Shown one piece after another: positions 55,307 through 57,911 of a stretch of DNA of 64,000 bases. The notes under the pieces were generated by a model. It made no database searches, was not told where the DNA came from, and worked only from the letters and a program-made list of their open reading frames with translations. The stretch lies in contig NZ_CP168151.1 of assembly GCF_026913205.2 (NCBI RefSeq), positions 1,178,001 to 1,242,000 on the forward strand, given 5' to 3'. The number at the start of each line of letters is the position of its first letter. The first letter of the stretch is position 1. The DNA comes from Lentilactobacillus sp. SPB1-3. Its GTDB lineage: Bacteria; Bacillota; Bacilli; Lactobacillales; Lactobacillaceae. The position numbers were made by a program, and so were the translations under genes.

Positions 55307-56164
55307 TTATTTATCTTCTTTTACTAATGGCGATGACACTTTTTGACCGAACCACTTTTGATCAATTCGTTTTAGTTTCCCATCTTTAGCTAATCGCTTT
55401 AGACCTTCATTAATCTTAAGTCTTAACTTGGTATCACCTTTGCGAATTCCGACTGCGTAAGATTCTTTCGGGAATTCACTCTTAACGATTTTATATGATA
55501 ACCGATTTGATTGGTGAGCAATGTAGTAATCAGCATAAATACTATCGATCAACAATCCCTGAATTCTATTGGAGTTCAAGTCAATAAAGGCATCTGTAAA
55601 TGAATCATATAGAACTGGTGAATTGCCTTTAATTCGATCCTTTAACAACTTAGGTTGATTATCAATATCCATTGCCCCTGCAGAACCTGTTTGCACCCCA
55701 GCAACTTTGCCTTTCATGTCGGCAAAACTATTTATGTTGTTTCGTTTTTTAGTAACCAGTATTTGATCATTAATTAAGTAAGGTGTACTAAAATCGATTT
55801 GTTTTGATCGCTCTGGAGTAATCGACAAACCATTCCAAATTAAATCAATTGTCCCATTTCTCAACTCAGTGATATTCATGGACCAGTCAATTGGTTGAAA
55901 ATCTACTTTAATACCATATTGTTTAAAAACTGCTTTTGCTAGGTCGACATCATAGCCAACAATTTTGCCACTCTTGGTTTGATAACCCATGGGCACAAAA
56001 CTATCGTCCAAACCAATGACGATGCGTTTACTTTTCTTAACAGTTGCCCACGTGTCTGGACGAGTCTCTAATTTTTGTCTTGACTCGATTCGGCAACCAG
56101 ATAAAAACATTGGCATTAGCAACAAGACGATTGCCAGCATGCTTTTGACGAATTTTCTTTTCAT
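55307..56164 (-). CDS. Amino acid ABC transporter substrate-binding lipoprotein
   Basis: A 285-residue type II periplasmic-binding-like protein, surface anchored. The signal peptide (KRKFVKSMLAIVLLLMPMF) ends in lipobox LSGC with Cys24. The SBP_bac_3 domain is shown by GLDDSFVPMGYQTKSGKIVGYDVDLAKAV and LIWNGLSITPERSKQIDFSTPY. These features are typical of polar amino acid (Gln/Asp/Cys/His-type) binders; the ligand is not evident. Last gene of the permease-ATPase-binding protein operon under the doubled T-box. Confidence 0.92.
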   Translation of the reverse strand: MKRKFVKSMLAIVLLLMPMFLSGCRIESRQKLETRPDTWATVKKSKRIVIGLDDSFVPMGYQTKSGKIVGYDVDLAKAVFKQYGIKVDFQPIDWSMNITELRNGTIDLIWNGLSITPERSKQIDFSTPYLINDQILVTKKRNNINSFADMKGKVAGVQTGSAGAMDIDNQPKLLKDRIKGNSPVLYDSFTDAFIDLNSNRIQGLLIDSIYADYYIAHQSNRLSYKIVKSEFPKESYAVGIRKGDTKLRLKINEGLKRLAKDGKLKRIDQKWFGQKVSSPLVKEDK

Positions 56165-56168
56165 CCAA

Positions 56169-56807
56169 TCATCCCTTCAACTGTTCAACTCGCAAAATAT
56201 TATCAGCTATTTTTTCGGCGAAATCCATATCATGGGTTACAACGATTTGTGTCATACCTTGTTGCTTCAAATCAATAATGATATTAGCAACTTCATCACG
56301 TAACTCCGGATCCAACGCTGAAGTTGGTTCATCATAGCAAAGGACCTTCGGATTCATGGCTAAAGCTCTAACGATGGCTACTCGCTGCTTTTGACCACCA
56401 GAAAGTTGGTAGGGATAAAGATTTTCCTTACCAGCCAAGCCTAATCTAGCCAATAAATCTTTGGCATCTTGTTTTACGGTTTCCGTGTTGGCTCCCTTAA
56501 CTAATCTTGGGGCGAGGGTAATATTATCTAGCACAGTTAAATTAGGAAATAATTGATAATCTTGAAAGACGACGCCGATAATCATATTTTGTGGATTTGC
56601 ATCGGTTGGATCAAATTCCTGATCGTCCCAATAAAAGCTTCCAGAGTCAACTCGTTCCAATCCAGTAATACAACGCAATAAGGTTGTTTTTCCGGCACCA
56701 GAAGGACCAACCACTGACAAAATATCTTGATCATTTACTTTGACGGATAAATTGTTGATAATCGTGCGACTACCAAATCGCTTAACTAAATTTTTAACTT
56801 CTAACAT
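56169..56807 (-). CDS. Amino acid ABC transporter ATP-binding protein
   Basis: A 212-residue cytosolic ATPase of the polar amino acid uptake family. Walker A GPSGAGKTTLL (about 33-43), Q-loop FQDYQLFPNLTV, signature LSGGQKQRVAI and Walker B VLCYDEPTSALD are all intact, with the switch His in VVTHDMDFA. The ATG at 56807 follows GGGGTG. It is in operon with permease and binding protein (gaps of 11 and 4 nt). Confidence 0.93.
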   Translation of the reverse strand: MLEVKNLVKRFGSRTIINNLSVKVNDQDILSVVGPSGAGKTTLLRCITGLERVDSGSFYWDDQEFDPTDANPQNMIIGVVFQDYQLFPNLTVLDNITLAPRLVKGANTETVKQDAKDLLARLGLAGKENLYPYQLSGGQKQRVAIVRALAMNPKVLCYDEPTSALDPELRDEVANIIIDLKQQGMTQIVVTHDMDFAEKIADNILRVEQLKG

Positions 56808-56818
56808 CGATAACACCC

Positions 56819-57472
56819 CTATCTCCAAACACTAGATTTCTTTTCAATTAATCGTAAAACAACGGTACATACAGCTGTTAGCAATAGATAAATCACACCT
56901 GCAAACAGCAGTGGTAACAAGGTAACATCTCTAGCACTGGCAACGTTTCCGGCTCTTAGCAAATCTCCTAAGCCAATTACGTAAACCAATGAAGAATCCT
57001 TGATCAAGTTAATGACCTCATTACCAATTGAAGGTAAAACAATCTTGAAGACTTGAGGAATAACGATGTATCTAATCGTCTGCCAATAGGTTAGACGTAA
57101 TACTCGTGCACTTTCAAATTGTCCTTTAGGGATGGCTTGAAAGCCTCCTCTAAAGATTTCGGCGAAGTAAGCTGTGTAATTCAAAATAAAAGCAAACAGT
57201 GCGGCTTCATATCTTGGAAAAACAATTGCGAATGGGTGCATCAATGGCAACCCATAAAATACAATAATTAATTGCAACAACAGTGGTGTTCCCCGCATCA
57301 ACCAAACATAAAAATTAATTAACCAAACCAAGGGTTTAAATTTGCTGATCATGCCCAGACCGACAATCGCTCCTAATGGAACTGCGGCTATCAGTGTCCA
57401 AAAGAATACTGACAAAGTCATTTTAGTACCAGATAATAGCGCTGGTAATATTTGTCCTAAATAATTTAACAT
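56819..57472 (-). CDS. Amino acid ABC transporter permease
   Basis: A 217-residue membrane subunit of the HisM/GlnP family. There are about five hydrophobic segments. The permease coupling loop is EIFRGGFQAIPKGQFESARVL (EAA motif, about 115-135), and RGTPLLLQLIIVFYGLP precedes it. The ATG at 57472 has GGAGG 8 nt upstream. The open frame to 57550 lies in the T-box leader and is rejected. First gene of the transporter operon. Confidence 0.92.
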   Translation of the reverse strand: MLNYLGQILPALLSGTKMTLSVFFWTLIAAVPLGAIVGLGMISKFKPLVWLINFYVWLMRGTPLLLQLIIVFYGLPLMHPFAIVFPRYEAALFAFILNYTAYFAEIFRGGFQAIPKGQFESARVLRLTYWQTIRYIVIPQVFKIVLPSIGNEVINLIKDSSLVYVIGLGDLLRAGNVASARDVTLLPLLFAGVIYLLLTAVCTVVLRLIEKKSSVWR

Positions 57473-57493
57473 AATAAATTCCTCCATAAAAAA

Positions 57494-57525
57494 GTCCCCT
57501 TGGTAAATAAACATACCAAGAGGAC
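57494..57525 (-). terminator. Second T-box terminator
   Basis: GTCCCCTTGGTA (57494-57505) pairs with TACCAAGAGGAC (57514-57525), one G-U pair, then TTTTTT on the minus strand, directly before the permease ribosome site. Confidence 0.85.
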
Positions 57526-57580
57526 GATGGTTTTCGCGGTTCCACCTCAATTTGTAACGTATTCACATACATTACCTCAA

Positions 57581-57598
57581 GAAGTTTAGTTATTTAAA
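57581..57598. repeat. Inverted repeat arm B in T-box leader
   Basis: GAAGTTTAGTTATTTAAA, exact reverse complement of 57691-57708, 92 nt apart. In the RNA the two could pair and enclose the whole first antiterminator/terminator module. Confidence 0.8.
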
Positions 57599-57606
57599 AC
57601 AAAAAA

Positions 57607-57638
57607 CGCCCTCTTAGGCTACTAAGCCTAAGAGGGCG
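57607..57638 (-). terminator. First T-box terminator
   Basis: CGCCCTCTTAGGC (57607-57619) pairs with GCCTAAGAGGGCG (57626-57638), 13 bp and 6-nt loop, then TTTTTT on the minus strand. Confidence 0.9.
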
Positions 57639-57690
57639 AATAATACCGCGGTTCCACCTCATATTTGTCTACAATTGCAGACCTCAAGAG

Positions 57691-57708
57691 TTTAAATAAC
57701 TAAACTTC
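57691..57708. repeat. Inverted repeat arm A in T-box leader
   Basis: TTTAAATAACTAAACTTC on the plus strand, exact reverse complement of 57581-57598. In the RNA it is the 5' arm, lying just before the first CTTGAGGT. Confidence 0.8.
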
Positions 57709-57882
57709 AGCAATAACGTGCTCACCGTTCTTCCCTACACCATTACTGGTTTCAAGAAAATAACTCCCAGATGTGAACTAAGCTAGCTTAACACCCCATT
57801 TTCAGCTTTCAAGGGCTCTCTGTCGTTAAACGTCACTTAGATTTCTGATCAACGTTTTTATTCATGTCAAAATGTTAACTAA

Positions 57883-57911
57883 ATAATACTTAATGTCTTT
57901 CCATTCGTCAA
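57883..57911 (-). promoter_or_regulatory. Promoter of the doubled T-box leader
   Basis: On the minus strand TTGACG (57911-57906), 17-nt spacer, TATTAT (57888-57883), placed immediately after the minD stop codon. Confidence 0.7.

Follow-up and report, generated by a model that had tools for sequence, protein, structure and literature searches.

In T-box leaders, stem I binds a tRNA by its specifier, and stem III and the antiterminator test the 3′ end of that tRNA; when the tRNA is uncharged, the terminator is avoided. The family model RF00230 comprises stem I with the specifier, the F-box, stem III, the T-box and the antiterminator/terminator, with an amino-acid gene downstream. The leader described here shares this architecture, but it adds a stem III/T-box/terminator module without a stem I, and either of two 3′ partners is available to the 5′ strand of its linker hairpin. 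Partially tandem T-boxes are on record, their modes of action being given as unknown, and no bridging helix or hand-over is described in the part of that source used here (PMC7583486). For the histidine transporter, the part of a survey that concerns us reports His T-boxes at hisYZX importers in Lactobacillales, with tandem T-boxes in five Enterococcus species and single ones in most genomes (PMC9413887), and excerpts of a second paper place paired T-boxes at artQ-glnQ-artP (PMC12452182); both are doubled T-boxes at the same kind of operon as ours. The former survey searched with RF00230 (PMC9413887), whose cut-off the second module of our leader misses. Two systems with other ligands or architectures are comparable in part. 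The c-di-GMP riboswitch Bc1 also combines one aptamer with two serial terminators, but it senses another ligand, and the portion of the paper considered reports neither a duplicated antiterminator module nor an alternative arm (PMC11218506). In the yxjA purine riboswitch, co-transcriptional strand exchange likewise underlies regulation, but one aptamer is coupled to one expression platform, as far as the cited part of the source goes (PMC9756952).

The bare partial duplication of a T-box is thus already in print. The new part is the alternative helix, here called A:B, with the hand-over anatomy that it suggests; we found no description of such a helix in the open-access literature. It provides a concrete, testable anatomy for partially tandem T-boxes, with the pairing checked in 172 leaders, and it may be the reason for the low numbers of doubled T-boxes at this operon in surveys based on the Rfam model. 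If true, nature would here use a single riboswitch sensor for two expression platforms, one after the other, with strand displacement as the link between them.

The window, i.e., the whole 64,000-nucleotide stretch of the Lentilactobacillus sp. SPB1-3 chromosome that was analysed, carries on its minus strand, in 5′ to 3′ order, a promoter-like site, an RF00230 T-box leader, terminator 1, a second stem III (stem III-2), T-box 2, terminator 2 and the start of a permease gene at 57472. The promoter-like TTGACG-17-TATTAT pair (57883-57911) is a consensus match only (10/12 positions), and it is weak evidence because a mean of 1.4 such pairs is expected per shuffle. The RF00230 covariance model aligned a full T-box at 57861-57629 over model positions 1-219, scoring 98 bits against a gathering cut-off of 93. 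Within it lie the sole stem I, the tRNA sensor (57764-57861, inner end approximate), and the specifier codon CAC (His) at 57773-57775, assigned by alignment to the T-box consensus and by conservation in relatives. They are followed by the CGGTGAGCACGTTA region at 57714-57727, which we take to be stem IIA/B (F-box) and whose C[GA]TTA motif is present in 173/174 leaders. Module 1 then consists of stem III (57667-57682; fold and Rfam alignment), T-box sequence 1, AGGTGGAACCGCG (57647-57659; sequence and Rfam alignment), antiterminator 1 (57631-57660; Rfam alignment) and terminator 1 with its T tract (57601-57638; terminator search), the hairpin of which has 14 pairs at 57638-57607. Module 2 repeats stem III (57554-57575; fold and covariance-model alignment), the same AGGTGGAACCGCG sequence as T-box 2 (57535-57547; sequence and covariance-model alignment) and a terminator with a T tract (57488-57525; terminator search), with 12 hairpin pairs at 57525-57494.

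In both modules, CTTGAGGT precedes the stem III hairpin and then the T-box, which agrees with the proposal of the first-pass annotation that the stem III/antiterminator/terminator unit was duplicated. CCTCTT is common to the 3′ strand of the antiterminator and the 5′ strand of the terminator in each module, making the two structures mutually exclusive by sequence. The same annotation had described two T-box cores and two terminators served by a single stem I and had proposed a covariance search, in which a second stem I would have changed its model. Terminators numbered two against a mean of 0.2 in shuffles, and in the RF00230 search module 2 with its surroundings scored 42 bits, below the cut-off of 93, with 74 stem I model positions skipped, which indicates that there is no second stem I. 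A full tandem T-box, with two complete leaders each having a stem I, was discarded for the same reason; the locus has one sensor and more than one T-box/terminator module, i.e., it is a partially tandem T-box. The genome (1.93 Mb) holds 29 T-box matches, and only in this leader do two cores lie within 120 nt of each other.

Arms A (57691-57708) and B (57581-57598) on the minus strand are exact reverse complements of 18 nt, separated by 92 nt and flanking module 1, exactly as the earlier reading had it. A chance inverted repeat was rejected by comparison with dinucleotide shuffles of the 521-nt region: among 2000 of them, an inverted repeat of at least 12 nt (loop of at least 40) arose in 28 and one of at least 10 nt in 304; lengths above 12 nt were pooled in this count. 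Beyond that earlier reading, we found that arm A takes part in a local hairpin that arm B would have to displace, that the specifier is that of histidine and that the layout is widespread. The local hairpin, hairpin A (AGTTTAG-TTAT-TTAAACT; 57689-57706, minus strand), is found in the fold and kept in relatives, is preceded by the F-box (CGTTA) and followed by stem III of module 1, and competes with the long-range helix. Arm A doubles as its 5′ strand and loop. Of hairpin A, just the 3′ strand recurs ahead of stem III-2, as arm B, which is lengthened to complement the loop as well and which in the window also matches part of the first 3′ strand. The single 5′ strand therefore has two possible partners. 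The arms are assigned on the inverted repeat together with the comparative pairing tests described below.

Our comparative analysis was based on doubled leaders collected from Lactobacillales. Three copies (L113, L128 and L134) were dropped, three further copies were later removed (177 to 174 leaders), and L166 and L229 were left out for lack of an anchor (174 to 172). In a test on 59 leaders, from which L055 and L061 (other layout) and L130 (arms same as L039) had been dropped, the A:B duplex had a mean energy of -20.9 kcal/mol with the own partner against -12.7 kcal/mol with permuted partners, and none of 20000 permutations was as good. L061 seems to have its own F-box and a full hairpin in module 2, yet its A/B duplex is still strong. 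In 153/173 anchored leaders, the first pair of the helix is 8-12 nt downstream of CGTTA, and the register of the helix is conserved among relatives. Across 134 distinct arm combinations, columns 12-20 were 78-96% Watson-Crick, and columns 16, 17, 19, 20 and 21 displayed all four Watson-Crick pairs, each at least 5 times; the outer columns 10 and 22 reached 44% and 66%, respectively. Mutual information in columns 12-21 ranged from 0.57 to 1.15 bits against a shuffled maximum of 0.17.

The arms had been predicted to pair and to show compensatory changes in relatives, and both were observed. Parsimony reconstruction on the maximum-likelihood permease tree (n = 112) gave 267 pair-state changes, of which 76 were two-sided changes from one Watson-Crick pair to another, 61 were one-sided with pairing kept and 69 were pair-breaking. 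Slid controls, in which the partner was moved by 1-3 positions, gave 4-7 two-sided changes, while swapped and re-optimised controls gave a mean of 45 and a maximum of 57, i.e., at most 9.9% of changes against 28% observed. The fraction paired was 90.5% with the own partner, 33-46% when slid and at most 74.4% when swapped. Pairing registers in these tests were optimised per sequence. When the partner was exchanged for the one from the nearest different relative, the own partner was better in 84 cases, worse in 22 and tied in 6 (n = 112); by duplex energy, it was better in 123, worse in 46 and tied in 3 (n = 172). Between the window leader and a near relative (L111), two pairs are compensated (T-A to C-G and T-A to A-T), one G-C has become G-T and one pair is broken.

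What we consider, as far as sequences can tell, the sharpest test of A:B pairing concerns the loop of the hairpin. Hairpins of the A type in the 172 leaders have a median stem of 7 bp and a loop of 3-5 nt in 155. Of the loop bases, 88% find a partner in the B arm of the same leader, against a mean of 43% and a maximum of 47.6% in 200 swaps, and all loop bases are paired in 114/172 leaders. These values bear on the idea that the duplication of the module simply copied the 3′ strand of hairpin A, leaving a complementarity by descent only. Arm B does resemble that strand; the copied strand, though, lacks the loop, which is matched too, and the two-sided changes exceed all controls. We rejected a passive remnant on the permease-tree changes and the loop pairing, and consider it barely credible. 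In 662/694 cells, the shared 5′ strand pairs with B as well as with its local partner, and 19 inferred changes are compensated in all three strands, to which gene conversion between the two 3′ strands could have contributed. A hairpin of the same kind scores at least 5 in 13/15 single-core relatives, and hairpin A therefore probably predates the duplication of the module. Taken at the level of covariation, A:B pairing is well supported, and it has been demonstrated in this sense for the His importers of Lactobacillales; its regulatory effect is what we infer from it.

RNA folding predictions were in line with a switch in the window leader. The leader folds better than all of 100 shuffles (z = -7.6), and its minimum free energy structure includes all 18 arm pairs, with a mean pair probability of 0.95. 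When A:B pairs were penalised, hairpin A formed instead at -127.2 versus -130.0, i.e., 2.8 kcal/mol weaker. At equilibrium and without tRNA, the probability of hairpin A was 0.80 before B is made, and that of A:B was 0.998 afterwards. In the same calculation on 172 leaders, a probability of 0.5 was exceeded by hairpin A before B in 128, by A:B afterwards in 128, and by both in 91. Since only 91/172 predict the whole switch and 44/172 stay at or below 0.5 for A:B, the helix may, in some species, need tRNA or the co-transcriptional order, or may not form. RNAalifold recovered the helix in 24 Lentilactobacillus leaders (11/18 pairs); on a MAFFT alignment of 43 diverse leaders, the helix was not recovered.

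The closeness of the two states in the window leader (2.8 kcal/mol) and the 44 leaders in which A:B is not favoured at equilibrium would suit a tRNA-controlled choice, in which hairpin A and module 1 gain stability from the bound tRNA, and A:B forms only once the tRNA leaves or is charged, so that helix formation itself is the regulated event. Against it, 128/172 leaders favour A:B above 0.5 without tRNA, at 0.998 in the window, and we regard such a choice as quite unlikely.

The reading that we prefer, with a probability of roughly 0.58, is a histidine-specific partially tandem T-box in which one sensor would be handed over to a second terminator by strand displacement. In a first step, tRNA-His would be bound by stem I through CAC, with hairpin A as the connection between the stem II/F-box region and module 1; in that module, the 3′ end of the tRNA would be tested by stem III together with antiterminator 1, and terminator 1 would be avoided if the tRNA is uncharged. 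With terminator 1 behind the RNA polymerase, arm B would emerge and use the hairpin A loop as its toehold; it would then displace the 3′ strand of the hairpin to form the longer A:B helix, the pairing that covaries. The spent module 1 would be looped out, and stem III-2 and antiterminator 2 would take its place relative to stem I. Finally, at terminator 2, the same sensor, perhaps still with the same tRNA, would undergo a second test. Testing twice in series with a single sensor should reduce leak and make the response steeper; the anatomy fits the suggestion, made in the first-pass annotation, of two checkpoints giving a tighter or sharper response. That toehold strand displacement hands the sensor from one transcription checkpoint to the next as a form of proofreading in which one bound tRNA is checked more than once is a more tentative proposal, to which we give slightly less than even odds.

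The spacing of the two modules is central to this proposal. A hairpin with a T tract follows core 1 in 170/172 leaders and core 2 in 172/172, and the distance from the helix to the T-box core is equal within 1 nt between modules in 127/172. From these equal distances we infer that module 2 would sit via the A:B helix where module 1 sat via hairpin A. The same feature bears on a possible insulator, with the A:B helix sequestering module 1 and so preventing mispairing or competition for the tRNA end, and with module 2 acting as a fail-safe terminator without re-docking. Module 1 is exactly enclosed by the helix, and both modules share stretches (direct repeat D1) able to cross-pair with each other's partners, which speaks for an insulator; it would, however, need neither the 5′ strand of hairpin A nor the equal spacing to the T-box core. 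Mainly because of the equal distances, from which a putative three-dimensional arrangement is read off the sequence, we prefer the hand-over and hold an insulator to be unlikely. Readthrough transcripts of T-box leaders are known to be processed, and an 18-bp helix is a plausible ribonuclease target, so that the long helix might also be a ribonuclease substrate or shield after readthrough. However, helix length varies widely among leaders and the complementarity tracks the loop of hairpin A; processing requires neither, and we consider an element of RNA processing or stability very improbable.

Downstream of the leader, protein searches identified an amino-acid ABC transporter permease (56819-57472), an ABC ATPase (56169-56810) and a solute-binding protein, SBP_bac_3 (55307-56164), all on the minus strand, which together are predicted to form an amino-acid (histidine) ABC importer. 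A permease, an ATPase and a type-3 solute-binding protein under a His T-box correspond to the hisYZX importer layout. None of the NCBIfam histidine models scored above cut-off for the importer proteins, and the substrate assignment thus relies on the specifier and on the published survey, as far as its relevant part goes (PMC9413887). CAC was found by regular expression near the specifier place in 165/177 doubled leaders; by eye, 11 of the 12 misses also have CAC, and in the remaining one, L166, another T-box lies upstream of an APC-type permease. L166 combines doubled cores with a nearly complementary arm pair of ~15 nt and is a possible independent case of an arm-paired doubled T-box.

Two further features of these His T-boxes were observed. 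The T-box base facing the tRNA discriminator (UGGN; 57541 and 57653 in the window) is G in only 7/354 module copies of the 177 doubled leaders, and the tRNA-His of the window genome appears to carry C73, which probably pairs with an encoded G-1; these T-boxes seem to avoid pairing with the tRNA discriminator. The specifier loop (57773-57845) of the window leader and its near relatives is without the AGUA/GAA letters of most other leaders (AGAAATCTAAG vs AGAAGAGTAG), and for this reason its S-turn may have been lost.

Our genome scans used a pattern of two T-box cores 85-115 nt apart, which is too close for a second stem I. Doubled cores were present in 163/397 Lactobacillaceae genomes from 18/40 genera, and in 60/395, 11/398 and 23/299 genomes in the scans of the order, class and phylum, respectively. 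The 60 genomes of the order scan were 32 of the window's family and 28 of a second family (f3), which we take for Enterococcaceae because an Enterococcus leader (L076) has the same layout; module identities between Lactobacillaceae and this family were 0.54-0.58. Among 80 loci found through the permease, T-box cores lay close upstream in 56, with 39 doubled, 15 single and 2 set aside (L055 and L061), the former because, by eye, it has a single core and a false match in the specifier region. Conversely, tblastn placed the window's permease, whole or in part, downstream of 166/174 distinct doubled leaders. In the tblastn-negative cases, inspection by eye revealed the same permease in longer stretches (L178 and L210) or a type-3 solute-binding protein, directly downstream in L220 and L226 and ~1.7 kb downstream in L215; L186 (at a contig end) and L212 were read in their original short stretch only, and the last is the APC permease leader L166. 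Two genomes (G349 and G245) have two doubled leaders each, the second ones (L258 and L259) preceding a solute-binding protein gene.

Doubled T-boxes also occur elsewhere in Bacillota, with 22 further genomes in the phylum scan and 31/63 genomes in the class of one of them (G1208). From these, a second set of 47 distinct leaders (among L285-L339) was assembled. In many of the 47, CCGTTA is followed by a GGRTATCGG...CCYGTAYCC hairpin, and CCYGTAYCC occurs once more ahead of stem III-2, i.e., there is one 5′ strand with two 3′ copies. By eye, the downstream proteins resemble DAHP synthases, symporters and CoA ligases, and 7/47 leaders contain GAAGTTC[GA]CTC, the specifier of which would be TTC (Phe). 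Basal pairing is nearly perfect in this set, but this is no evidence because the motifs themselves served as anchors. In random swaps, the own duplex was better (-22.4 vs -18.7 kcal/mol; 0/20000 as good). After 8/47 leaders were dropped, loop pairing in the remaining 39, of which 35 have a local 3′ strand, was 66% with the own partner against 60% when swapped (18/2000 as good), and in the strict covariation test, the nearest-relative swap, the own partner was better in 20 leaders, worse in 26 and tied in 1 (n = 47). Since loop pairing is hardly above the swaps and the nearest-relative swap is reversed, the likeness to the His leaders appears to be one of layout only, and we treat it as a lead and not as a second proof. 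The layout may represent a second case of hand-over, which our tests as a whole do not support so far.

A further family of Bacilli (f14) contributed eight doubled leaders (L276-L283) with no room for a second stem I, in which no linker hairpin or consistent arms were seen by eye. Their best A/B duplexes ranged from -5.4 to -24.7 kcal/mol without a shared place. By eye, these doubled T-boxes are apparently located upstream of aromatic amino-acid genes.
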